DNA of 64,000 nt from Polytrichum commune (lineage: Eukaryota; Streptophyta; Polytrichopsida; Polytrichales; Polytrichaceae): positions 31,653,666 to 31,717,665 of the forward strand of contig OX485807.1 of assembly GCA_950295325.1 (NCBI GenBank). The letters run 5' to 3'. The first letter of the stretch is position 1. Each line of letters opens with the position of its first letter. This document shows, piece by piece, positions 1-62,660 of this stretch. The position numbers and the translations under genes are program-made. The notes under the pieces were generated by a model. The model did not search any database, was not told where the DNA came from, and saw only the letters and a program-made list of their open reading frames with translations.

Positions 1-900
1 AGAGTGTTGGCCGCATGAACATAGTGCAGAATGTGTTTAGAGTGCGATGTCCAATTGTGCAGTGTTTGGTTGCTAGTAATCGGGAGCAATAAGGAGAATC
101 TTGTACATGATGTACCGTTCTTTGTGAAATATATTTATACAGTTCATGATGTTGATTTTGTGAAGTTCTGAAGTTGTGAATATGAGTACCAAATCGTGAA
201 ACTGTTCACAACATGTAGTGAAACTGGTTGAAAGTTCAAGTTAAATTGGTTGTCTATATAGTGAACTTGGTTCATAATTCCAATGAAATTGGTAGAACCT
301 ATTGGTGAATTGGTTTGTAAAATCATGAAATTGAGTTTGCACTTGTGTGAATTCATCTTACCAAAGGAGTATGATAGAATCCGATACAAGTCATGGTTCA
401 TGATAGCTGCACTCACCTTAGTAGGCTACCAAGGGCACTTTACCTCTCAAAGCAACCCATTTCACTAAGGTAGAGGGTGCTAAAACCAACACCTATAAAC
501 GCCTCCCAATTGCCAACACTCTACAACCTTGAACCGTACCCAGCGGTGTAGGAGTGTCTAGGCCCACGGAGTGACGGTTTTAGGTGTCATTAGTGGTGCC
601 ACCTCATAGCGGCCTTCACTACCTTCATGTAGGGTAGGTAACGGGCTCCACTTTATCTCGGGTTGGTTCAAGGTAGGATTAGGGTGGCTTGTTAATGCCT
701 ATCCTAGCCATTATATTCACAATGCCAAGGAGGTAGGCCCACAAAGCACAAAAGGATCATTGCCCGGGATGCAAGGGGGTTGGTTCCCGGGATGCAAGAT
801 GATGGTTTTGCAAGCGAACCGGGTGGGATCATGAAGGTAGCTATGTGGCTTTGCATACCATTACTGCTTGGGCTTCGATGTAGTTTGGGTGAGGGAAGCT
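1..900. other. Non-coding stretch, no gene seen
   Basis: No convincing coding exon on either strand. The first 350 bases hold loosely repeated TGAAACTGGTT/TGAAATTGGT-like words, and a short duplicated word (CCCGGGATGCAAG) occurs twice around 766-800. Probably degraded repeat DNA flanking the large element that follows. Confidence 0.5.
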
Positions 901-914
901 AAGACATGAGCGAT

Positions 915-935
915 GAGCGGTGAGCAATGAGCAGT
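915..935 (+). repeat. Left inverted GAGC-rich (sub)terminal motif
   Basis: GAGCGGTGAGCAATGAGC plus three bases; the exact reverse complement is at 12144-12164. It lies in a wider cluster of GAGCRRTGAGC words (about 905-942). Possible transposase-binding subterminal repeat of the large element. Confidence 0.55.
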
Positions 936-1200
936 GAGCAATAACATGTGATTGATGGTGCCAAATATAGTAACTGGGCACGGTTTTAGGGTACATATTC
1001 TAATATTGGCATTTTTTCTTTGCAATTTAAGAATTATAAAGTACTCACATTTTGATTGAACAAGAGTGAAGGGAGCACATTATCATAGATATTTAAAAAA
1101 ACCATCAGTCCTTTGCTGATTTTTATTATAAAAATCCACACTAATTACATGTCACTTACCAAAATTCTCAAACATGCGGTTGAATACAACACTTGGAATA

Positions 1201-4200
1201 TTACTCACATTCTACAACACTTGCAAGTTCAAGGAGTTGCATAACCTCATTGTAGGAGTATGTTGGAGCGTGAATGAACTTGTCACTACTGTAATCCACC
1301 TTACACAAAAATCTAAACACATAGTAAAGATGTTTGCAATACACCCATTTCCCTTTCTTTCCCAAAGATTGAGATGACATTTTCGTGAAGTCAGGGCATG
1401 TACAATGTGGCATGTCAGCAATTGTGACACAATATTTGATGTTATCCTTGGAGACGATGTTGAGTAGCACTCCAAATCCTGGATATGGAATGGCAGTTAC
1501 TCCAACCACATAGTAACCGTCCATGAGTCCAGCGCTCTCCCATTTGTTTTTGTGATCTGCCGTTGGTGCTCCTAGATTGCGGCGCACCGTCTTTCCAAAC
1601 CTGGAAGTTGGATGGGCATCTGGTTTTTGTGCTACACGTAAATCCGTCCGAGGAATCGGGAGTGTCGCAATTGTGGAAAGCCTACGGCGAGGAGAGAGAA
1701 CCTCCCTTTGTTGTAATTGGAATCCAGCATCTTCGAGCGCCAATACCTCCTGCCTTGAGAGATTGGTACCTATCTTTACAGGCCATGTGTTGGGTACTAT
1801 AGGCCAGTCTAACACGTATTTCTTCTTGCTACCACTTACACAACGTTTGATGTTGTCATGGCAAAACCAAAACTCGTATTCCACATTGTTGGTGGAGCGG
1901 TATTCTTTCTTCAATCCCTTGTATGTAGGAGCAGGGGTGCCATGTTTGTAAGTTCCAACTTTGGCATTGCACAAAGGCCCTGTATTGGCTTGCATTGCCC
2001 AACATCTTTTGGCAGAGTTGGATGGCAATCTTGCAATATGCCAATGAGAAGAAGGGCAATCAGTCTCTAACACCGATGTGGTATGTGTCACACCATACTC
2101 TGCAGAATTCAAAGATTCCTCTATGCATGCCATTTTAACCCTAGTGTTAGGACGAGGAATCGAGTAGTTCACTTTGTCGGGTCGATGTGAGTCGCAATCT
2201 GCACCTGGCGGCAGATCAAGTTTTTGTTTGGTAGATCCAAACAGCTCAGACCCCTCCAAAGCACAATCCCTTGTATTGAGATCTTCAGCCCCCGGATAGG
2301 ATTTCATGGCATCTGCTAGTAGCTTTGGATCTCCACACCGGGCAGCAACCTTCAACTTCAAGGACGTAGAATCAGGGCCTTTACCAGTAAAACCTCCTCT
2401 CAACCACGATCTATAATCTGCAATATGCATGAATGCACGGATCAAATCGTCCACTGTTGCTTCATAAAGACAAGTCATCTTGTTTCCAGACTGTTGGAGC
2501 CATTTGTTGTGCATTGTCTCTGCAAGGTTACACGTCGGCATTTCTGCACGTTCATCTATATTCATTTCCTGCAAACATTACACAAATTATAGTAGATTGT
2601 ATATATCATGGATATTCAAAATTAAATAATATTGGAAAAACATAGTAATGATGCACTTACAAGAATCATATGACCATCCCATTGCCTATAACGGAAGTGC
2701 CAAAACCCCAACCACTCGGAGAGCCCGTGAATGTCTTCTTTTGTGGCAGCTCCAGATGACAACCATCATGAACGAATAACATGATATTTGGTTTCGGCTT
2801 CGTCCATTGTTTTCGCGTCTTTGTAATCTTTGCATAGATGTTTGTGCTGAAACTGCAAAGATGCCTTGATATATTTTTGCGTCACCTTGTCCAAGTTTTG
2901 TGACCAATGGAAAAGACAAGTGCGCTCACGACCCACCATTGGCAGACTTGGGTCGCCTCCACCATATATCTTCCTGACCGCATTCAATTTGCTTGAGCAC
3001 TGTCCACCATAAAATCTTTGAAATTCACGGTTAACACTCCATTCTCCGCCATAACAGTATTCAAGTTTTCCCAGAAAAGAGTTTGAGCTACACCATCTTC
3101 AGATTGCATGTCACAACACGCAATGGTCAACACCTTACAATACTTGCTATCGTACACATGACACGCAAGGGTGGTCCAGTCCTTCAAACGTTTAACGTAG
3201 TCAAACATTATCCATGAATTCTTCATATCTCCTCCCTCCTGTATACGCATAACAAGATCCACACCACTCCCCGGAAGATCTACTGACATTTTGAAGACAA
3301 ATACTTTGTCTTTGGACTGTCCGGGGAACCTACTAGCATGAACGTACTTAAAGCTCGAATGGTCTTTGAGCGCCATGATACTATCCATCGTACCCATTCC
3401 ACTACGAACAAATCGCTTTGAGCCGGATACGAAATTCCGACAATTTGGAGAGGCAAGAGTACTAAATTTATCCATGACGACCTCCAAAGACGAACCTGTC
3501 AAGTGATGTCTTTCACTGTTTGATGGAGATTTTAGGAGGTAGTCTGCCAAAAATTGTTTGCTCACTGCCATTACTATAGCGGAGTTTTTGGCAGTGGGTG
3601 TTTTTGTGACCTCATTGGCAACACATTGGTATGCAATGTCCAAAGATTCACGGCATGTACCATTGGACACAGGGTGGTCATGCACGCCTAGATGAATACA
3701 AACCCTGGCCATTTCAGAAGATAAGGAGTGCACATATATTATGCGAGCATGGCATAAAGCTATGCATATAGGTGTGGAATGACAAACCTTACATTCCAAT
3801 TTGGACCTCTCAGGGGCAATAATACCCATAGAGAATGGGGTAGGAGTTGATCCGGCCCATTCGGTGTTGTTGCGCTCGCCTGCATTGCGATGCATATAAT
3901 CACAAAAATCATTAGAGCATTGGAGATGACCTGCACAAGTAGAACGTCTGAAGGTTAATCCAAAATCATTTTGGATATTTGTGGTTTTGGTGGTGCACCA
4001 AGGGTGTCCGTCGCACATCTTATCCATGCCATCCATTGAACGACCATAGGCGTTTGGAACTCCAAATGGCACAGGGGGCAATACAAACAAAATGTCACCG
4101 TCAAAAGAGGAAGGCAGATACTTAACATCTCGCACCTCTATGCTGTCAAAATCAATGGACGCAAGATCTGACTTGGATCTTTTCCTAGACTTTGTTTGTT

Positions 4201-4795
4201 TCAATGCGTCGACAATATTCATACCCACTGATGAAGAAAAATTGTGTAGCGGGGGACGTTGTGATACTGAACCATGGTGTGCCACCTTCACATACAGAGG
4301 ACTGTAAGGAGATTTGGGAAGATCCATAGGGGGGTTTGAAGGGATGAAATCTTTACTTCTAAATGGAAATGGTGATGTATCAGAAAGGTCAACAACAGCA
4401 CAAATGTCATCTTCAGAATCCGACAACACTATTACACTATCATCAGTAGGTTCCAATTTAACAGTGACGATACTTGGAACTTGAACAGTTGATGTACCAG
4501 ATTCATTTGTCAAAATGACAGTAGAAGCTTGCATCTGAGAATCAGAGAGTCCCATAACTCTATATGAACCAGGTCCTAAACTCCACATAGAACCACCATC
4601 ACTTCTATTCTTTTGCATCAAGATTGTTCTAGACACCTCTCCACCTACAGAGTATATCTCTTGCTCGACGTACATGGTTCCTACTTGGAGGTTGAATCTC
4701 AAACCAAGCAAATCTTCTAAAACAACTACACAACCATCACTTTCAAGAGGCAAAATGAAGGGTATAAAGGATCCATGAGCACGGATGGTAGCCAT
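1201..4795 (-). pseudogene. Mutator-like (MULE) transposase with SWIM zinc finger, frameshifted and nonsense-mutated
   Basis: Reads from an ATG at 4793-4795 to a TAA at 1201-1203, on the minus strand. The first exon runs 4795-2661. The donor GTAAGTGC at 2660 and an acceptor at 2569-2570 give a 92-bp intron in phase 0. The second exon is 2568-1201. The order of features is as in MULE transposases: a long N-terminal region, a DDE-type core with the segment FKDFMVDSAQAN followed by AVRKIYG and the FHWSQ block, then a C-terminal SWIM finger (CTCPDF ... CKH). Two lesions are visible. There is a one-base frameshift at about 2985, inside the core just after SAQAN. There is also an in-frame TGA at 2766-2768, after which the same frame continues into the exon end. 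Either the copy is dead or these are sequencing errors; two separate lesions favour a dead copy. The passenger gene is divergent from it. Confidence 0.8.
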
Positions 4796-5217
4796 GAAGA
4801 ATGTGTGGATGCAATGTACATCATGCTATGGAAAACATGACCTATTTGTATTGTGTCTTGGCAATCTTAATCCGTGGACTTGAAAAATATACTATATGAA
4901 TGTCTATTGAAAGAAATGGTGCACATGGGCTGGTAGGTGTAAAGAAGGTAATGCCAGTTGTTGATTATATTGGGTAGACAATGACCAATGTAAGGAAGAT
5001 ATTTTAATAGCGTATCTTTAGCTTTCAAATAAAATTCAATATCTTAATATTTGGGTTCTAAAGATGGTGGTGGTGGGCCTTTAATAATTCCTAAATCCCA
5101 AAGAAGAAGAAGACATAATGAGTGATGATCTGTTTCAAACTTCTTACAGCTTCAAAGTGAGGTAGAGCTTTTAGGTTATGCAAAAAGCGAATGTAGAGAA
5201 TTGATAGATTTTTAAGG
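4796..5217. promoter_or_regulatory. Divergent intergenic region between transposase and methyltransferase-like genes
   Basis: About 420 bp separate the two opposed start codons. The sequence is AT-rich with no long ORF. By position it would hold both promoters if the two genes were once expressed from the same element. No specific motif was identified. Confidence 0.35.
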
Positions 5218-5987
5218 TTGCAAATGCAAGAACGGGATTATGCGACACCAACAAAGCGGAAGAGAAAGAGGGGTGGTTTTAAGTACTCCACCAAAAAAGC
5301 ATTGGCGAGATCAAGAATGGGGAAAATATTGAGTAAGGTCGATGAGGGAGAGGCATTTTTGACATCGAGAACTATATTGTTTAAGCCCGGAGACGAAGAT
5401 ACTTACACCGATGGGCTCGGCTCAACACCTTACATTGGAGGCGAACCTAATACAGAAAGAATTACGGACACCCAAGAATCTTCTAGAGCCGAGGATGAAG
5501 GGGAGACTCAATATACAAGAGAACTAAGACTCAATATTCATTTCTCACTTTGTAAATTCAATTGCAAGTTTTATACACATGTTGAAAGTACAATTGATAT
5601 GAAGGTGGATACATATATTTTTTGTGGGCAAATATATGTTAAAATTTTGAAATTTGAGATTTTAGGTAATACCTAAATGAAGTCGTTCTTGAAATGGATG
5701 TCATTGAGGTGAAGGTTATGTAGTTGACCATATACATTATTACATTTACGGTTTAGAACTCAAATAAGTCATAGTTGACGTGTGTATCCTTGACGGTGGA
5801 GGTAAACATCGAGGACGAGGAAAAAGAAGACAATTTGAATGAAGATGAAGAAGGAGAGGACGGTAAAAAAGATGAACTAAGAGGAGGCTTGATAGACGAA
5901 GCAAGACGAAGCATGGAAATCGATGGAGGAGGCGACTTCACCGCCGTCCAAAAATCTCAGGCAAGCATTTTGAAAGTGAACTTGAAT

Positions 5988-7070
5988 GCTTGAAATATTT
6001 CTTAAAGATTGAGGACATGGATTTCATCACTTCCTCCTTACCCTTGGTTTCATAAGGTGCTGAGAATGAGACATTAACCCACAAAATAAAGAAATAATGA
6101 AGCAAGAAAACCCTAAAATGAGTCTTGGTTCCGAGATTAGGTTTTTTGAAATTTCAGGGTTTTCTTCTTGCCTCTTCAATTCTTGCTTTTGTGTTTTTTT
6201 TCGCACTTCTTTGTGTTCATTGCTTATGTCTTGCTTTGATATACATGCTTAGAAGTTATTATGTAGTTTGCTTGATGGGTTTGTAGTGTATTCAAAAATT
6301 TCAATGAAGAAGCTTCATTGTTGAAATTGAAGCTTGAAATGGTTCTATAAGGTTAAGAACACGGATTTGATCACCTCCATCCCACCCTAGGTTTCATAAG
6401 GTTCTGAAAATTAGGCATTTGTGACCACAAAAGCAAGAATTGAAGAGGCAAGAAGAAAACCCTAAAATCTCAAAAAAATGAGTCTTGGTTCCAAGACTAG
6501 GTTTTTGAAATTTCTGGGTTTTCTTCTTGCTCTTCAATTCTTGCTTTTGTCTTTCTTTTTGCACTTGTTTGGGTTCATTGCTTGTGTCTTGCCTTGATAG
6601 GTATGCTTACAAGTTATTGATAAGTATGCTTGATGGGTTAGTATGTGGTTTCAAGAATTTCAATGAAGAAGCTTCAAGCTTGATATTCAAGCTTGAAATG
6701 AATCTATAAGTTTGAGGTCACGGATTTCATGACCTCCCGCTCACCCTTGGTTTGGTAAGGTGCTGAAAATGGGGACATTAATGTGTACAAAAAGAAGAAA
6801 TGAAGAAGTTAGAAAAAACTTCAAAATTCCGAAAAAATGAGTCTCGGTTCCAAGACTTGTTTTTTTGAAATTTATGGGTTTTTTTCTTGCCTCTTCAATT
6901 CTTGCTTTTGTCTTTATTTTTGCACTTGTTTGGGTTCATTGCTTGTGTCTTGCTTTAATGTGTATATTTGGAGGTTGTTAGATTGTTTGTTTGTTGTTTT
7001 TGCGGTGTATCCTAGAATTTCAATGAAGAATCTTCAAGGTTGAAATTGTTACTTTAAATGGTTCTAAGAG
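5988..7070 (+). repeat. Three-copy tandem repeat, ~345-360 bp period, each unit a long hairpin
   Basis: The word ATGAGTCTYGGTTCC recurs at about 6118, 6478 and 6837, and GCTTGAAAT at 5988, 6332 and 6691. This gives three units of about 344-360 bp inside an intron of the methyltransferase-like gene. In unit 2 an arm at 6429-6462 is reverse-complementary (one gap) to 6516-6548, with a smaller inner palindrome (AGTCTTGG/CCAAGACT) between them. The third unit is the most diverged in its left arm. Confidence 0.85.
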
Positions 7071-8359
7071 GTTGAGGGCTTAGTTTTTTTTCCTTGAATG
7101 GTTAATTTTTATGTAATTTGATTGAATGTTATTTGTGGTTTCATAGTTATGTGTTAATTTGATTTCGTTTGTTATTTGAATTTCAGGATGGTGGAGATGA
7201 CGATGGCGGTCCCCCACTGCCCAATGATTTGTTAAATGTGGAAAAAACTATGTCTCATATGCGAGATTTACAAAATACAAACTTCAATTCTTTGATTGGA
7301 GGACTTCGTATGAAGCCGTTCTCAAAGTCAAGAGTTTCAATCCCTCTTTGTCGGTTAATACCGTTGCCTATTGTGAGGCCAATCTTGGAAATCGATGTCC
7401 AACTTTTGGAGAATGAATTTGTGAATGGTTATAGAGAAGGTGATAGGGTACTGTATATATCTCCATATAACAAAGATGGAAATACTATGGATATTTGGGA
7501 CGAAGACACTTGGAGAGAACATTGGCAATCTTCCAATAAATCATTTGAGGAAATCCTTAAGAATGATAAAGATTATGAAAGGTTTTGTGGTAAAATGTTT
7601 TTTGTTTGGAAGGGTAACCATCGGGTGACAGCTTGGTGCCGCCATATCGATAAGGTCCATGGAGAAGATAAAGAGTGGCATTACTCCGTTGATTGTATAG
7701 TACTTGAATCAACCGGTTCGGTGGCTCTTCTTCTAAATGCTATGCATGATGTGAACATGTATATTTTATTTTCCGATGTTTTTTTATATATTTTTTGTTT
7801 ATAATTATCAAATTATCAAATTCATTGATCTTTTTTTTGTCATCTTTCTTAGATCTACGGAATCATATCATATCAAGACAAATTTAGTTCACAAACTCCA
7901 TCGTGTCCAAAGTTTTGGAATCAGAAAGTTGGAGGAAATTTAAAGACCTTCTTACCCCTGATCAATATTCCAAGTGTTTAAAGAAAGATGGAAAGGAAAC
8001 TTGGTATACCCTCACTTTGGAAGTCTTACTCAATTTCTTTACAAGGTGGGTATTCTAATTCATGCTAAGTTCTGTTATTGAATATATTTTTGCTAAAGGA
8101 TCTTAAACTAATTCTTAGTTTTTGGTTGTGTAGCGTGAGATAACATCTATGACCGAAAAGACATCTCATAAATACAATAAGAAAACTCTACTTCAATTAA
8201 GGACATCAAAAGGTATTTGGGATATCATGCAGAATGCAACAAAGAAAGCAGTATCATTAATTCGTGAAAAAAAATTCGAAAAACTTCTCGCTGTCGTAAA
8301 TCCAGCCAATGAACACCATATTCAAAATTTTGGGAGATTTCCAGTCTCCCAATTTGATG

Positions 8360-8428
8360 ACAGTTTAGGTGGAGTCGACCTAAAATGTACCCAGTGGATA
8401 CATTTTAGGTCGACTCAACCTAAACTGT
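8360..8428. repeat. 30-bp inverted repeat (hairpin) inside an exon of the methyltransferase-like gene
   Basis: Arms 8360-8389 and 8399-8428 match 29 of 30 as reverse complements, with a 9-bp loop (CCCAGTGGA). Each arm contains GTCGAC. It interrupts the reading of the exon 8134-8499 shortly after the residues FPVSQFDDS, and the open frame happens to run through it. Short GGGAGA/TCTCCC and CCCAAAAT words flank it. Most likely a small fold-back insertion or a palindrome formed by templated repair. Confidence 0.85.
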
Positions 8429-9896
8429 ATTTTCCCAAAATCATGGAATTTTCCCAAAATTTCGAATATGGTGTTAATGGCTTCGATTTCTTGGAGGAAG
8501 TAAGTCATTATGTTTTTTTATGTAGCATTCATTTCGGTATCCTATATGAGAGATTTTTATTATTTTCACCTTCCATTTCGTAGATCAATAAGCATTTTGG
8601 AGATCGCTCTGAGCCTACCATGACCCTAGAGAAACTGCAAATGATTGCAACTCCTTCAGTGAATTCGGTGTTCAAAATCAAATAGTTAAGGTGGTGGAAT
8701 TCTAGCAATATGTCTCGTGAATCTCTACGCTTTCCATTGGAAGATATCAAAGAAAAAGAACTTGAGAAATAGTTTATCAAAGCGTCATTTTGGGCCCAGG
8801 TTATCCCTTATTCTTAAATATCTAAGTGTTTTCATTTCAATTTTTGAATGTTTTATGATTTATTCAATGGTCGTGATGCATATGTATCATTTTGCATTTG
8901 GAAGATGGTTTTGTGAAACAATTTGAGGATATAGAAAAGGAAATGAATGTGAAGATTATTTGGAATGCACATATACTTATGCCTTCTGAGTACATTGAAA
9001 AGTGGCGTATTATGCTTTGGACAAAAACATTCCGACCTTTTTTTGGTGGCATGAGTACAATTACAAAATCTACTCTACTCGGTAAAATTTTTGGAGGAGG
9101 CATTGCTATCAAACGAGTGGTATTCAGGTAATTTATCTTTTCTTTCTCTCATAGCTTCAATTCGTTCATTGCATACTTGAAGTTTGCCTTGACGTAATCG
9201 ATTCACTAACTTCAATCAAATGGTTATTTTGTCTCAAATGTACATAAAAAACGAGCTATTGGCTTCAAACGCCATCCCCCTTGCCTCCATTCCGAGTTGT
9301 TTCTCTTCATGGGCTGACAAATCTAGTGACCTTTGTATTTTTACGGCAACCCAGATAAGAGTTTGGGATTATGCCACTTTGCAGTCTTGTCCATGGTTTA
9401 TTAAGTGTCCTCTTACGTTTTGTCCAAGTGAGGAGGAGGAGCTCAGGAAACAGTCATATCCAATAGACTTGCCTCCTGATGATATTGACATGATGAACAA
9501 CGAGGATGTGTGTGTGGTGAAAGTAATCAAACCGGAAGGAAAAACTAAACGTAAGCGTGGCTCAAAGGTAGATGAGGTTAATCCAGCACCTTCATCTCAA
9601 ACCGGTGTTATGGCACACAATCCTAGTCCTTCAACACCTACACCTAGCACTCAAGATAATGATGGACCTAAGTTTTCTTCCATTTCAAGATCACTATGAT
9701 TTCAACATGTGTCAAAAACCATTGTCAGTGGTGCTTCACCTTCTGGGGCAATTTGTTCAATGATGTTGGAGAAGATTTCAATTCAAACATTGATGGAGAA
9801 TGGTGGTCATGAGCATCCGTTAATGTTGAAAACATTTGAATTTGTGACTAAGGTCAGTATATTCAACATTGAACTTATTTTTATTTTATGATATAT

Positions 9897-10229
9897 CACT
9901 AGTAGAAAACATGGTAAAAAAGATTCGCAGTCGTTTGTCCATTGCGGTTCTTTTGACCACCCTGATCTGCAGTCACTAAACGACTGCAGATTTTTCTTTT
10001 TTCTTTTACGACTACAATTTTAAAATTTTGGGGGCATGTAATACACCGTTGGAAAGGTATTTTCAAGACCTTTCCAGCGATATTTAAAAGCCCCCAAATT
10101 CCTAAAAATTTAGTTGGTAAACCAAAAAAGAAAAATCTGCAGTCGTTTAGTGACTGCAGATCAGGGTGGTCAAAAGAACCGCAATGGACAAACGACTGCG
10201 AATCTTTTTTACCATGTTTTCTACTAGTG
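9897..10229. mobile_element. Fold-back MITE, CACTA-like ends, 106-nt identical arms
   Basis: Begins CACTAGTAGAAAACATGG and ends in its reverse complement. The arms 9897-10002 and 10124-10229 (106 nt each) appear identical, and the 121-bp centre is itself partly palindromic (GGAAAGGT ... ACCTTTCC). The CACTA-type terminus suggests an En/Spm-derived MITE. The flanking trinucleotides are TAT and CAT, so the expected 3-bp target duplication is imperfect. It sits in the intron between the exons ending 9852 and starting 10298. Confidence 0.8.
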
Positions 10230-12091
10230 CATGGTGTTGATGTTGCAACATGTTTTGGACTTGAGTGTAATATTGTTTTTTGGTTTTTTTTTTGTAGGTG
10301 GGTTCCGGACCCAATAGGAGGGTTTCTTCAGAGGATTGTAGTTTTGGAGGTTTTGACCTTATTATTGCAGATTTGCCAAAAGGTTTGCCTGTACCTAACG
10401 TTTCATCTCCTCCACATATAATTCCAGCTTGGAACGACCACAAGAGAAAGAACATTGAGGCTCTATTTGAATTTGCATGTGCATATCTCACCAATGATGG
10501 CCCCTTGCTTTTGTTTGTTCCTGAGAAGAAAGATGTCAGAGAGGATGTAAGGACATTCACAGCCTCCTATGATTTTGTATTGCGAAAAGATTGGTGGGGC
10601 TTCAACGAGTTGCCTTTGTGTTATCCACTTGACACATCATTGACGGTATACATTAAATTCTATTATTTATTACTTTGAATTCTACTTTTTCATTGTATTG
10701 CAATGTTCTCATCAATTTTGTAATTGATTCCCCCGCTGAAGGTTTTCTCGTGGTTTATAGACTCGTCGTTTCCGCATCATGTTGTTTCTTCGTTCTACTC
10801 CCAAGTTGGAGTTTGTTTTTCAAAAAAAGAACGCAAATACTGAGGTGGATGTGGAGGCCTTGGATGTGTTCTTCAATCTCACATCGGCAAGCACTCAACT
10901 CATGAACGGAAAAGTGTCATAGAGAGGTGGTAGGGAGAAAGACTCAGAATCGATGCAAATCTTAATAGAGGCTTTAACAACTCCTGCATCGGTTGTCCTC
11001 GATGCTTATGCATCTACAGGTTGGTTTATCTCTTACTCAAAGGACCTATTATATCATCTCCCAATGTGTTTTAATGAAATCATTGTAGTGTTATCAGTGG
11101 CTTGTGCAAATTAACTGACATTTCAACATTTCATTGGTAGGTGCATCTATTCATGCTTGCAGAAATAGTGGCATATGAGGAAGATTCTGCATTGTTTGAT
11201 GTCATTCTATCCCCATTAAGTGATCCACCACCAACTGCTACTGTAGGTGGATTTATGCCATATAATGCCTCCATCGATTCCGATGAAGAGCCTGTTAAGA
11301 AGGTTGTGAGAAAAAGTCGATTGAGTACGTAAGTTTTCAATTTCTCCATATTGTTTGTTAATTTGGCCCTCCAATGTCTGATATGTGTGCACTAGAAGTC
11401 TAACACTTATGATGTCAATTCGCAGAAAAAAGAAAAACATGACTTCATCTCCGAATATGGGTTTGCCAATATATGCAAAAAATGTTGCTCAGATCATGGC
11501 AAGATCAGTGACGCCAACTCCTCGCCGTATATCTACACGAATTGCTCGTAACCCGTATGTAGATGATGAGGCGATTCAATGCGATGATCTAAGTGATTAA
11601 GCTAAACTAGTTTAGGGACATTTAGGTAGTTGTCAATACCATCCACTATGTGTTTGATTGGATTGGATATTATTTGGTGGATGTGTGACAAAGTTTGGAT
11701 TCATCATTTGAAATTACCACAATTAGTGGACATTGAATTGTGTGAGCAATTTCCTCTTATTCCTAAACCCTATATCCTAAAACTTAATTACCTCTATCAA
11801 TCCATTTCTCAAACTTACATGAATTTTAGAAATACAGTTTAGAGCAATACTTGGAAGGTGCTTGCATTGTTATTACAATTGGATGTTGCATCCAACAACA
11901 ACATTAAAAATATTTTTCAAACCCTCATGCCAAGCTTGCAGTTGTTGAATTTAAAAGTAGAGTTAGGTATTCATGAGGATAATTACATTTTTTGACTATC
12001 CATTAATTTTATTATAGAAAAAAATATTATTATTTATGCCAAAATACCACGGATATAGGGTACTAGTGCGTGTATTTCCAAAAATCTTTCC

Positions 12092-12155
12092 TCACCTACC
12101 GTTCACAAGTTATTGCTCATCGCTCACCTACCGTTCACAAGTTACTGCTCATTGC
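12092..12155. repeat. Two-copy 32-bp tandem repeat in the right GCTC cluster
   Basis: The word TCACCTACCGTTCACAAGTT followed by AYTGCTCAT repeats twice (from about 12092 and 12124) immediately inside the inverted GCTC motif at 12144-12164. It belongs to the right subterminal region of the large MULE-like unit. Confidence 0.7.
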
Positions 12156-12164
12156 TCACCGCTC
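12144..12164 (-). repeat. Right inverted GAGC-rich (sub)terminal motif
   Basis: Exact reverse complement of 915-935. It marks the right side of the proposed 11.2-kb unit. Confidence 0.55.
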
Positions 12165-12170
12165 ACATGA

Positions 12171-13319
12171 TAGCACTCCCCTAGTTTGGGTCTAGTACCC
12201 AACTATGTTGTGTTGGTTCTAGGCAATGAAGGTGGGAGTCCTCATCATATGCGAGGTTGCCATACACGTAGTTTAAAGAAGCTACTAGTTTTGACTTTGA
12301 ATATTCATCAAATATTCAATTGAGACTAAAAATAATTTTTCTATCTTGATACCTATAATTAGCCCAAAGGCTATTATGAATATATATTTTATATATCAAC
12401 CATATAGCCATATGTATGTGCAATAGCTTAAAGTGTTGGTTTAAGCACCCACTACCTTAATTAGTAGGCCTTTGAAGGACCAGTAGCCTCAAGAACACTC
12501 AAATTAGGAACTGCAAATTACCAGTAATTAGAACAACTTGTCATACAAGAAGTTGCATCCCAAGGGGTTTAATTCAATCCTCGATGACACATTACATGTT
12601 TCAAATTCTTAACTAAGACAAATAGCACATCTATCACTACTAAGCATACGAGTCCTATGCGATTGTCCCATGTCAATGAAAGAACAATGCAAATCTACCA
12701 TTGTGCTAGATTTGCAAATTCTTTAGTCACATCGGCCAAGTTTCGAGTGATGTAGGTCGATTGCAAAGAACTCATAAGCTTGTATTCAATGCACATAAAT
12801 TGTATTTTCACGGTCACATCTCGTGTGGATGGCAACATTCTCTTCCTACTAAGACATGTCATGCAATGTGCAAGCACACCACAATCGTGTCAATTAATCA
12901 TCTTCTTGGGTTTTACGATTGTTAAAATCCACATAGGGTGCTCGAGAATTTGATCTACATCATGGTGCTGACGTTGAATTGATCACATAATATAAGCAGC
13001 TACATGCAAGGAAAAGGTAAAAAGCAACATTCGGACTCACATGATCAACAGTGTAGACAACATGCTAAAAGCTGAAGGATATGGGGATCCTCACCGCCCA
13101 CTATTCTATAAAATCCAGTTTCTTTAGCTTCATTGACACATAAAGCTACATCTTGGGACTAATTTGATGTAAGCATACCTATTCAATCCCTTAAAGTTGC
13201 TTCCCATTAGGTGGCATTTTTCTTTTTGCCTTTTTGGATCAATGGAATGTCTATTGCTAAAAAACAAATGCACCATTGGTGGCATATTTCTTGGCAACGT
13301 CTGCCAACAAGTGAGAAGG
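12171..13319. other. Gene-free repeat DNA
   Basis: No supported exon. A segment around 12630-12700 (AAGCATACGAGTCCTATGC...) resembles 16770-16820, so it belongs to a diverged dispersed repeat family also present elsewhere in the window. Confidence 0.45.
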
Positions 13320-60369: not shown

Positions 60370-62660
60370 CCAAAAACATACTACCAAATAACCTACATCA
60401 CACACACACCCAGACATTACCAAACTACTAATAGAATCCTATAAAATCACACACTCATACTATTCATCCCCCCTCACATGCCCTATACAACTTACACAGT
60501 ACAACTCACCCCACAACCGAGACATATTATTTGGCTTCATGGGACACGCGAAGTCCTCCCATTGGAAAGGAATAGGCCTAGCATTCCCCACGGACCACAA
60601 CACAACTCTAGAAGCTATCCACTGGGCTAGAATGGCAGCCAAGGAAGATCTAGATACACATATGCTCACCATTCTAATAGTTAATCACAAGGACTGGACA
60701 ACACAATCGCTACCACTCAATACAAATGTTGACACCCACACAATCGCAACCATACCCCCACACACCATACAATACGCTCCCACACCGAAATGCCCAAATT
60801 ACTACCAATACACATAACCATCGCTCACATCAATAATTTGTGTACACAACCCAACACAACTACCAATGAATATACAACCCCCGCAAGAATTACAAAAAAT
60901 TCTAAAAAAAACATTTAACATACACATAGACATCCACCTCATAAATCCCAATACAAAACCATACAAAGTTAAATTCTCCAACTCATGGAACAATGCCCCC
61001 AAGGCCACCTCCCCACCAATACATACAAACCATAATACAACACCCCTCCCTACTGAATTTAACTACACCCACCCACTTAAATTCCAACCACAACAATGTA
61101 CATACACGGATGGATCATTTATCACACCCACCAAAAATTCTGAAGGCCAAATAGAGGGAAATAAGGCAGGATCAGGAGTATACAGTCCCAACAACAATAC
61201 TCACATATCAGAGAGACTACCAAGATACCAAAACATCCTAAGAGCATAACTCAATGCAATACTCCTAGCCACCAAAAACATAAAAAATACCCAAACATAA
61301 ACGCATATATTTATAGAGAGTCTTAACAACATATTCCTAATCAATAACCATATACAACACCCGACATCACAACATCACCACCCAGATAAACTACTCATAG
61401 CAACCATCATTCGGCAAATATACTGGACCCCACACATAATACACATACACAAGGTATGTGCACACACAAACATTATTGGAAATGAAATAGCCAACACACT
61501 AGCCAATGACGGAACCCACAAGGAGAAACCATCCCCCACACCCCACATACACATAGCACACCCAACCCCATATTGGTTGGCAGGTTGCCCAACAGCCACA
61601 CATAATGGAGCCATACGCAACCTTAGCACATTCATAACAAAAGAACGTGAATCTCGAGAAACGCTAATAGCCAAACATAAATTCCCATATGTCGACAAAT
61701 GGCTATCAAATGAACAAATAAACCAAAAACTCTCTAACTACTCTTGGATAAATGACAAAGTAACTGACGCACAAATCACTCAAACACTAAAATTCAGATA
61801 CGCCCAATATATGGGCAACCACAGGAAAAACATCTTCTGGCCCCTCACACACCAAAACCCCAACTGCACCCTATGTCACAAAAATGGCAGAGACACTTGG
61901 CCCCACCTTTTATCAACATGTGAACACCCATACCTAAAAGGACTAAGAATTGCAAGACACAACAAAGCGGTACACCTCATCACCCAAACGCTCCAAGCCA
62001 ACAAAAACACTCGGTACTTCACACTAACCAATGCAAAGAAACTTAACAACATAATACCAAACAAATAATCCCCGATTGGCTTATTAAATGCTCGTGCCAA
62101 CAAATGCCATGCAGTTGCCAAGCTAAACTAAGACCAGACATCCTATGCATAATTGGTGCACCCAACCATACACAAATGCCAATATCGCCCTCCCCAACAC
62201 ACACAATCCAATTTATTGAATTCATATACTGTCATGACAGATTCCCATAACAAGCAATCACTCGAAAACACACAAAATATGACCCATTAATAAACACCAT
62301 ACAAAACAATGGGTGGAAGACCAACCCCATCGTTACCATCACAACTGGAGTCAGGGGTGCCATTCACGAACACTCCATTGAAAAACTAACCCAACAAAAA
62401 ATCCCTAAATCCAGCATCAAACTCCTTATGAAACATATACACCAAAACGCCATCAAATACCTCACATACCTGGTTCTAGATAAAAGGAAACTAGATAACA
62501 AACAAACACCCATCCCCCCCCCCCCCGCCTTAGAAATGTTAGATATACTTAATATTACACTAGAGCCCACCTCCCCACGGAGGCAAATCACCTTATATTG
62601 CATCACGGTACACCGTGATCAATACAAGGTTAACAGGCTCACATTCATGCCAATATAAAG
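60370..62660 (+). pseudogene. Non-LTR retrotransposon 3' half: RNase H, CCHC and restriction-like-endonuclease-type region, inactive
   Basis: Plus-strand coding remnants in two main frames. 60866-61249 reads TDGSFI and AGSGVY, the opening of an RNase H domain. Its expected catalytic glutamate position is a TAA (61247) followed by LNAILLA. The frame continues past another TAA (61298) to AHTNIIGNEIANTLAND, where A-D-x-L-A has become A-N-T-L-A. 61577-62068 ends with CTLCHKNGRDTWPHLLSTC, a C-x2-C-x9-H-x4-C finger. After a frameshift near 62068, RPDILCI and FIEFIYCHDRF match the R/K-P-D...E pattern of restriction-like endonucleases found C-terminal to reverse transcriptase in R2/NeSL-type elements; a TAA interrupts it just after HDRFP. 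No reverse transcriptase was found upstream, so the copy is 5'-truncated. A short frame at 60539-60817 (SHWKGIGLAFP) may be an upstream piece. Confidence 0.65.

Follow-up and report, generated by a model that had tools for sequence, protein, structure and literature searches.

A long-lived but exchangeable gene pair, transposase and methyltransferase-like partner, in MULE-type elements of Polytrichum commune

The comparison of one MULE-type element of Polytrichum commune with its copies and diverged relatives shows that its two genes, a transposase and a second gene with ParB-like and beta-class methyltransferase-like parts, form a long-lived partnership with partner exchange and that the second gene is no simple passenger. 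The element is located at 891-12181 of the stretch of DNA analysed here (the window, 64,000 nucleotides). Regarding the divergent partner of this MULE-type lineage, we favour a reading in which the protein no longer methylates and would bind element DNA as a dimer. The candidate sites are lineage-specific, namely the palindromes that form arrays within intron 1 of its own gene and/or the heptads of the termini, and from there the protein would shield its own element from silencing or help transposition, in the manner of VANC of the VANDAL MULEs though assembled from other components. Judging from sequence comparison, we give this reading a probability of about 0.45.

The window element is confirmed as a single MULE-type unit of 11,291 bp, with ends set by comparison with eight other copies. 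It is bordered by a 10-bp target-site duplication (TAGTTTGGGT; 5' copy at 881-890, 3' copy at 12182-12191), opens with a 5' terminal repeat on the plus strand (GAGGGAAGCTAAGACATGAGC..., 891-951) and closes with a 3' terminal repeat on the minus strand (12103-12181, ending GATAGCACTCCCC). These repeats are imperfect and composed of TGAGCRR heptads, all facing inward, with heptad pairs at 907-938 in the 5' repeat. The original prediction had placed an exact 21-nt inverted motif outside both genes. The motif is indeed exact (915-935 on the plus strand, 12144-12164 on the minus strand; 22 nt counting 914-935) and, allowing up to 3 mismatches, occurs at just these two sites within the 64 kb, against 0 expected from 100 shuffles, but it consists of three 7-nt repeats within the terminal repeats, and the true element ends are 891 and 12181. 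Inside these ends the two genes stand back to back as predicted, with the transposase ORFs on the minus strand and the exons of the second gene on the plus strand from about 5226 to 11601. The proposal that 900-12170 is one mobile unit also holds, given the MULE-sized target duplication and the same gene pair in nine of nine close copies and in the diverged elements read.

The host genome gives 34 WRKY matches, split exons counted, which suggests a land plant with a small WRKY complement. The elements for reading were picked from a first genome search with 71 matches; the sample comprises eight close copies, three diverged transposase loci, six diverged second-gene loci and the pieces L036-L045, taken from longer match lists. 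All eight near-identical copies beyond the window (with the window copy, the W family) contain the same two head-to-head genes. Both ends and target duplications of 8-10 bp are seen in eight of the nine. A script found six of these duplications, and inspection of the flanks found the two of c1a and c6b; that of c6a has 8 bp with one additional mismatch. The ninth copy is 3'-truncated (c1b breaks off inside the final stretch of the second gene). Copies with the same gene order, shared termini and MULE-sized duplications are found as anticipated. Because ends and duplications are shared, a reading as two separate neighbouring insertions is ruled out. Termini between the genes, near 4.8-5.2 kb, were also considered: no terminus seen lies there, and among the nine close copies the eight with both ends have them beyond both genes. 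Similarity breaks nevertheless fall at about 4.1-4.8 kb. Among the diverged elements, target-site duplications of 8-11 bp flank m5, k1 and d1a, and none was seen for d6; terminal inverted repeats rich in TGAGCRR are present at both termini wherever both were read, d6 having few heptads.

The transposase gene (1201-4795, minus strand) is broken in the window between two long ORFs, at 1201-2577 and 2984-4825, which measure 734+458 aa in copies c5a and c7a and 742+455 aa in m3. Its description as a SWIM-domain MULE transposase remnant is borne out in part: the frame is broken and a SWIM-like CxCx(n)CxH is visible by eye near the C-terminus, but the SWIM finger stays below the Pfam cut-off (10.3 bits versus 19.6, with 14.0 bits in the best relative; E-values 0.039-0.53), and Pfam detected no MULE domain in the window exons or relative sequences searched.

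The second gene (5226-11601, plus strand; exon borders approximate) encodes a protein of roughly 1,170 aa, with an acidic N-terminus, a ParB-like exon, a middle region and a beta-class methyltransferase-like C-terminus. The term remnant fits its window copy, which is pseudogenised. In the exons with SAM motif I (10764-11331, plus strand; VLDAYASTG / GASIHACRNSG...), an in-frame TAG at 10920-10922 replaces the TGG of all eight other close copies and 14 nt are deleted relative to the same eight, both changes being private to the window copy among the nine; a foldback-containing insert of about 165 bp (8312-8475) is likewise missing from all eight. A further foldback insert (9897-10229, ends CACTAGTAGAAAA) is missing from copies c7a and c6a. 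A private exon-3 frameshift of the window copy was considered and dropped, the exon having one extra base relative to all eight copies and one missing relative to six. The gene of m3 is open and splices through 8 exons into 1173 aa.

By its profile matches, the C-terminal part of the second protein is a relative of the beta-class amino-methyltransferases, in agreement with the original prediction. PF01555 matches at 32.4 bits over positions 1-216 and 35.3 bits over 163-216, above the cut-off of 26.7 (E-values 1.1e-7 and 1.5e-8), and profile comparison gives DpnA/M1.HpyAVI at 9.1e-9. The PF01555 match follows the permuted order, with motif IV first and the SAM motif last. Single window exons of the element gave no above-threshold domain in Pfam, and a phage tblastn search returned 11 weak matches (E 0.08-0.9, about 60 residues), all annotated methyltransferases. 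The ParB-like exon (7187-7757, plus strand) carries the motif FFVWKGNHRVTAW and owes its label to the resemblance of its GNHR motif; Pfam, PHROGs and PDB profiles contain no match for this module. AlphaFold models were poor for the ParB-like exon (pLDDT 40.4; Foldseek nothing below E 1.6) and for the methyltransferase part (pLDDT 42.6; Foldseek top matches N6A methyltransferases, E at least 0.089).

Homologues of the second gene are carried by the complete elements m5 (14,942 bp, AGTAGGATC) and k1 (15,167 bp, TCTGTTACCT) and by the partly read MULE-type elements m3 and m1; the sequence read revealed no 5' end for m3 and no 3' end for m1. Both genes show purifying selection across long divergence: among pairs of W, m5, m1, m3 and k1, dN/dS is 0.09-0.2 for the transposase and 0.14-0.73 for those second-gene exons whose dS is unsaturated. 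Near copies have dN/dS near 1 in several exons, and the transposases of d1a, d3 and d6 have 0.17-0.61, i.e. decay. The broken window copy and the near-1 ratios of close copies are what a captured host gene without function, as in a Pack-MULE, might leave behind. This explanation is highly improbable, as lineages with saturated dS carry the same gene at the same position and in the same orientation, between-lineage dN/dS is below 1, the 8-exon m3 copy is open, searches with the ParB-like exon and with the methyltransferase-like exon give at least 150 matches each, and the two chromosomal PF01555 matches above cut-off both fall within such second genes. Simple Pack-MULE capture is rejected, since the second gene is conserved across lineages.

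The synonymous divergence of the two genes differs, showing that lineages have exchanged them; the similarity breaks at about 4.1-4.8 kb point the same way. The C-terminal transposase exon of m3 and k1 is 92% identical in amino acids with a dS of 0.42, while their second genes share 33-35% of amino acids and dS is saturated in two of three scored exons; the pair W/d2 presents the opposite pattern. The 5' terminal region and the transposase remain similar across swaps of the second gene. MURB and TnpA of En/Spm are transposition accessory factors, and by analogy the second protein could bind the terminal heptads and aid synapsis with no role in silencing, which would agree with the occurrence of heptads at the termini of the families read and with the constancy of the 5' region and transposase through the swaps. 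We judge this unlikely: the heptads stay constant while the second gene drops to about 33% identity, so that they would suit the conserved transposase better than its diverging partner.

The original prediction further held that the protein could mark element DNA with 4mC or 6mA. Motif IV of its relatives is DPPY. The corresponding exon of the window (10298-10642, plus strand) has DLPKG at 10370-10384; the W family has DLPEG in seven of the eight other close copies and YLPEG in c1b. Elsewhere the motif is DLPEG in d1b and m5, DLPEG/DQPEG in p5, NIPEG in m1, QFPDG in m3 and DIPDG in two of three k1-type copies read, with deviating forms in d2 (DLPED), d1a (DLPQG), d6 (YSPEG) and L036 (k1-type, DIPYG); d7 (L026) is omitted, its motif region having decayed. 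No copy read has the PP of [DNS]PP[YFW], motif IV of active enzymes. Genome-wide, D[LI]P[DE]G, the acidic form, is counted at 92 places and the form with an aromatic at 5, while reversed-pattern controls give 0; these are pattern counts whose places are not individually assigned to the second gene. As D[LI]P[DE]G has taken the place of motif IV in most cases, self-marking of the element with 4mC or 6mA is unlikely, and the second protein resembles a helper that binds DNA more than an enzyme that marks it.

An amino-methyltransferase active with an unorthodox motif IV would explain the clear beta-class homology (PF01555, DpnA), the aspartate of motif IV retained in most copies read, the near-canonical SAM motif FxGxG of L037 (DLFVGTGAS) and the single k1-type DIPYG, and methylation has been suggested for the algal proteins described in PMC12477816. 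The predominance of acidic over aromatic places, the changed FxGxG of m3, m5, p5 and W, and the rotifer enzyme N4CMT, in which replacing SPPY by APPA is reported to abolish activity (PMC8885841), render this improbable. If our favoured reading of a non-methylating partner is true, it advises caution in calling transposon-borne ParB-methyltransferases 4mC/6mA writers before motif IV is checked.

Tandem arrays specific to each lineage are found in intron 1 of the second gene. In the window, a 359/360-bp repeat (6115-6953, 2.3 units) has a unit with AGTCTYGG-TT-CCAAGACT, and its copy number ranges from 2.3 to 6.3 units across the nine copies. Four of five lineages are rich in long palindromes: those with arms of at least 11 nt number 37 in m1, 16 in m3, 7 in m5 and 6 in k1, where shuffles reach at most 2, 1, 1 and 1, and the rest of each element read has 1, 3, 0 and 1, respectively. 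The W family has few (W 1, c2 2, c5a 3; an 18-nt motif occurs five times in c2), and d1a, d2 and d6 have none with such arms.

By analogy with ParB and parS, a plant MULE superfamily may have turned a bacterial ParB-methyltransferase to non-catalytic targeting, the protein of each lineage recognising the palindromes that stand by the dozen in its own intron 1 and marking the element for anti-silencing. Protein and array would then act as one cassette, so that cassettes swapped between transposases would give new specificities, as VANC and its arrays do independently in VANDALs. This extension is doubtful. The anti-silencing action of VANC is demonstrated, and the likeness here is one of functional analogy; we know of no methyltransferase or ParB-like part in VANC.

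The arrays could also be independent satellites that settle in introns and are unrelated to the ParB-like proteins, a tenable possibility to which we give rather less than even odds. Three palindromes have 9231, 490 and 2909 places in the genome, one of them is shared with the introns of another gene family that has no detectable similarity, a different palindrome forms two clusters with no known exon alongside in the 3-kb pieces read, and the centre is constrained in the second m3 palindrome, the k1 palindrome and one m5 palindrome. Against satellites, the arms of the m1 palindrome and the first m3 palindrome vary less than the 2-nt centre and most positions of the flanks. Of the nine GTTTGGGTCGNNCGACCCAAAC clusters among the first places listed on C1 (up to 21.2 Mb), eight are in or beside elements of the two ParB-like families, three of them judged by reading and five by their closeness to an m3-type exon or transposase match; the ninth is unplaced. 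If the favoured reading is true, partner and sites constitute a directly testable protein/DNA-site system, with sites, an open gene and near-identical copies in hand.

ParB-methyltransferase accessory proteins of transposons are already known from algae (PMC12477816): Sola1-1_Ec32 of the brown alga Ectocarpus encodes one of 1104 aa, on the strand opposite to the transposase, and such proteins are said there to occur in green and red algal transposons too. The likeness, by description and not by sequence, lies in the ParB-like module and N4C/N6A-type methyltransferase domain on the opposite strand of a large DNA transposon; in contrast, the host there is Sola1 and here MULE-type, and the algal protein is predicted to methylate (PMC12477816), whereas motif IV here is mostly D[LI]P[DE]G. 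The view that no plant MULE with this cargo has been described agrees with our literature search, but transposons of another kind are published with such proteins. A literature search over titles and abstract openings found no MULE with a ParB-methyltransferase gene, and the words methyltransferase and methylase are absent from the main text of a MULE survey (PMC6446971) and a gene-capture review (PMC13317346). We found no published account of the MULE setting, the altered motif, the module exchange and the arrays.

The VANDAL MULEs of Arabidopsis, with VANC, are alike in carrying extra genes and in having arrays of tandemly repeated motifs within introns of their own genes, with copy number varying between copies (PMC5735166); the elements described here have a diverging second gene with arrays in its intron 1. 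If the favoured reading is true, plant MULEs would possess two independently built modules for anti-silencing or targeting, the second being a pseudo-methyltransferase that selection has maintained. DNA-methyltransferase genes are likewise carried by other mobile elements, namely retrotransposons with DNMTs and DIRS elements with Dam-like N6A methyltransferases, but these are retrotransposons whose enzymes are of the C5 or Dam type (PMC5890265). Bdelloid N4CMT is also an amino-methyltransferase of bacterial origin in a eukaryote, yet it is a host gene outside transposons, with a catalytic SPPY and shown 4mC activity (PMC8885841).

Based on a search of the 408-Mb host genome (64 contigs, the window being G000:C5:31653666-31717665), we obtained 71 DNA matches to the transposase part: nine long ones at 97–100% identity (the window and eight others), seven at 81–85% and then a large group at about 78–79%. 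The second-gene query led to the identical nine places, with gene order and orientation kept. When the eight other close copies were read with their flanks, homology began at window positions 886-891 and ran to 12181-12184. The exceptions are c1b, whose 3' end is lost and which breaks off near 11495, and c1a and c6b, with offsets of up to 53 bases. Target duplications of 8–10 bp flank eight of the nine copies (six detected by script, those of c1a and c6b by eye; that of c6a is 8 bp plus one mismatch). Because close copies have common borders and flanking duplications, window 891-12181 is a single element with the duplication TAGTTTGGGT, and the original prediction of one gene pair, in one order, holds at all nine places, eight of which keep both termini. 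The 21-nt inverted motif that it described is present but not free-standing, being three TGAGCRR heptads of the terminal repeats.

The window copy has a stop codon in the second gene where all eight other close copies have TGG, together with a 14-nt deletion and a 165-bp insert relative to all eight. This copy is therefore dead, in agreement with its earlier description as a remnant. Its second gene also contains a 333-bp foldback element (9897-10229) with CACTAGTAGAAAA ends, missing from c7a and c6a, which we take to resemble a CACTA-type foldback. Elsewhere in the window, the ORF at 61301-62068 contains ARHNKAVHLI(T/A)QTLQANKNTR, with a near-repeat in an ORF spanning the 3' end of the diverged element m3; our guess is that it is probably part of a LINE-type repeat.

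The methyltransferase-like nature predicted for the second gene is borne out by contiguous 577-aa ORFs of the type of k1, another diverged element, which match PF01555 (N6_N4_Mtase) above the curated cut-off (1.1e-7 in L036 and 1.5e-8 in L037), by a four-row profile of the second protein that matches DpnA/M1.HpyAVI at 9.1e-9, and by the permuted beta-class motif order, which opens with motif IV and closes with the SAM motif. PHROGs DNA methyltransferases match the protein at 3e-5, and the typed, spliced C-terminal segments of m3 and m5 match PF01555 at 1.5e-4 and 4.8e-4, below the cut-off. On contigs C10 and C12, PF01555 matches are strong (down to 9.6e-26), whereas those on the chromosomes are weak; the DNA of these two contigs is possibly that of a contaminant or symbiont. 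The N-terminal exon carries a GNHR motif reminiscent of ParB/sulfiredoxin domains. Profile searches and fold comparison of this exon gave no support for a ParB assignment, and the putative ParB label stands by motif and likeness to algal proteins only.

The L036 sequence DLIIVDIPYG aligns with DLIVADPPYG of methyltransferase 9c3u (M.BceJIV), so that its motif IV reads DIPYG; the other two k1-type copies have DIPDG. The W family (the window copy and its close copies) has DLPEG in seven of the eight other copies, YLPEG in c1b and DLPKG in the window. Among diverged loci we found DLPEG in d1b and m5, DLPEG and DQPEG in p5, NIPEG in m1, DLPED in d2, DLPQG in d1a, YSPEG in d6 and QFPDG in m3. Genome-wide, a degenerate nucleotide pattern encoding D[LIM]P[DE]G[LIM]P occurs at 92 places and its aromatic version at 5, counted as pattern places rather than as members of the second gene; reversed-pattern controls of both gave 0, and the pattern excludes TTR leucine codons and so misses the W family. 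That lineages of 30–50% identity share so uniform a change suggests selection for a different role, or loss before the radiation, rather than random decay. PMC8885841 reports that an SPPY-to-APPA change abolishes the activity of a related enzyme. The p5-type locus L040 (C5:7880000-7889000) holds two tandem partial methyltransferase-like gene copies, with DQPEG and DLPEG; the 9 kb read there gave no match to the transposase.

Two diverged elements are complete, m5 (C5:38.65M; 14,942 bp, duplication AGTAGGATC) and k1 (C1:9.65M; 15,167 bp, duplication TCTGTTACCT), and both carry the transposase on one strand and the second-gene homologue on the other. The same gene order was found in m3 (C3:25.35M) and m1 (C1:16.40M), each with one end not found in the stretch read. 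Elements m5 and k1 have heptads at either end, m3 has them at its 3' end and d6 has few copies. The gene pair is old. The m3 second gene has eight exons with GT-AG borders (one acceptor at CAAG) encoding 96+1077 = 1173 aa, and the m3 transposase ORFs (742 and 455 aa) are open. Its ParB-like and methyltransferase-like exons gave at least 150 scored genome matches each, of 1203 and 1346 candidates respectively, which is not 150 copies since some matches fall at one locus. Many m3 methyltransferase exons elsewhere in the genome are 97–100% identical, indicating recent spread of this subfamily. Between the transposase and ParB-like exon of k1, plus-strand protein-kinase-like pieces (L036:842-2264, GRGSYGVVWKC...; Pfam Pkinase weak, E 0.21) are possible extra cargo. 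At L026 (C7:30243000-30252999), a plus-strand transposase relative of about 30% identity lies upstream of a second-gene piece and adjoins, by eye, a retroelement integrase-like ORF; this is a nested or rearranged locus.

NG86 estimates gave transposase dN/dS of 0.09–0.2 in W/m5/m1/m3/k1 pairs and 0.17–0.61 in d1a, d3 and d6, and 0.14–0.73 for second-gene exons where dS is unsaturated; a number of the dS values exceed 1.5 and are approximate in their own right. Near copies show dN/dS near 1 in several exons, indicating decay after insertion. Between m3 and k1 the C-terminal transposase exons share 92% identity over 457 codons (dS 0.42), but the second genes 33–35%, with dS saturated in two of three scored exons and 1.72 in the third. 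W versus d2 is the reverse: dS is 0.07–0.20 in the second gene and saturated in the transposase, and windowed identity is about 70% to ~4.4 kb and mostly 75–94% beyond. Against m5, m1, m3 and k1, W shows 72–88% to ~4.8 kb and almost nothing beyond. These conflicting histories and identity switches show that the two genes change partners.

Intron 1 of the second gene contains a 360-bp tandem repeat in the W family (2.3–6.3 units across nine copies) and differing arrays in m1, m3, m5 and k1, with one unit type common to m1 and m5. Palindromes include GTTTGGGTCG-NN-CGACCCAAAC and CCTGTGCGTTAACGCACAGG in m3, TTTACGAACG-NN-CGTTCGTAAA in m1 and TTTGTGCGC-NN-GCGCACAAA in k1. Within analyst-set intron borders (arm of 11 or more, no more than one mismatch, G+C content of 30% or above) we counted 37 in m1, 16 in m3, 7 in m5 and 6 in k1, against maxima of 2, 1, 1 and 1 in 40 shuffles each, a control that ignores tandem copying of arrays; the remaining element read holds 1, 3, 0 and 1. 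Intron 1 has one of arm at least 11 in W, two in c2 and three in c5a, and none in d1a, d2 and d6; a shorter palindrome, AGTCTCGGTTCCAAGACT, occurs five times in c2. In the m1 and first m3 palindromes the arms vary less than the centre and less than most positions of the flanks, a difference inflated by picking sites on arm match; no freer centre was seen in the second m3, the k1 or one m5 palindrome. Among the first 50 listed of the 490 genome sites of CCTGTGCGTTAACGCACAGG, all on C1 below 21.2 Mb, 45 sit upstream of a listed m3-type ParB-like exon at a distance of up to 5.5 kb and 5 do not, and all ten such exons listed in that stretch have at least one site. This shows that the palindrome array belongs to the element; binding does not follow.

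A transposon-borne ParB-methyltransferase protein is, as a kind, already published, since PMC12477816 describes the 1104-aa ParB-like and N4C/N6A methyltransferase protein of Ectocarpus Sola1-1_Ec32, encoded opposite the transposase as in these elements, and refers to relatives of it in green and red algae. The prediction that no plant MULE with such cargo had been described agrees with a limited open-literature search, in which we found no description of the MULE setting, of the altered and probably non-catalytic motif, of an exchange of modules or of the palindrome arrays; algal transposons are known to carry proteins of this kind. The second protein may be a sequence-specific, non-catalytic binding factor, whose binding would help the element escape silencing or move; VANDAL/VANC (PMC5735166) is the nearest functional analogy.

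The 22-bp palindrome GTTTGGGTCGNNCGACCCAAAC, with a free 2-nt centre, has 9231 genome sites and TTTACGAACGNNCGTTCGTAAA has 2909, with 0 for reversed-pattern controls of both; they form a large class of palindromic arrays. For two clusters of the m1 palindrome, the 3-kb pieces read contained no known exon. Another repeated gene family (C1:617300-625299, C1:2117000-2121999 and C1:1182000-1186499) has a DGQHS motif and a WLIDGQHSVEASKKI region that we take to be ParB-like by motif. Tblastn gave no match between this family and the window second gene, and GTTTGGGTCGNNCGACCCAAAC arrays lie among its exons.
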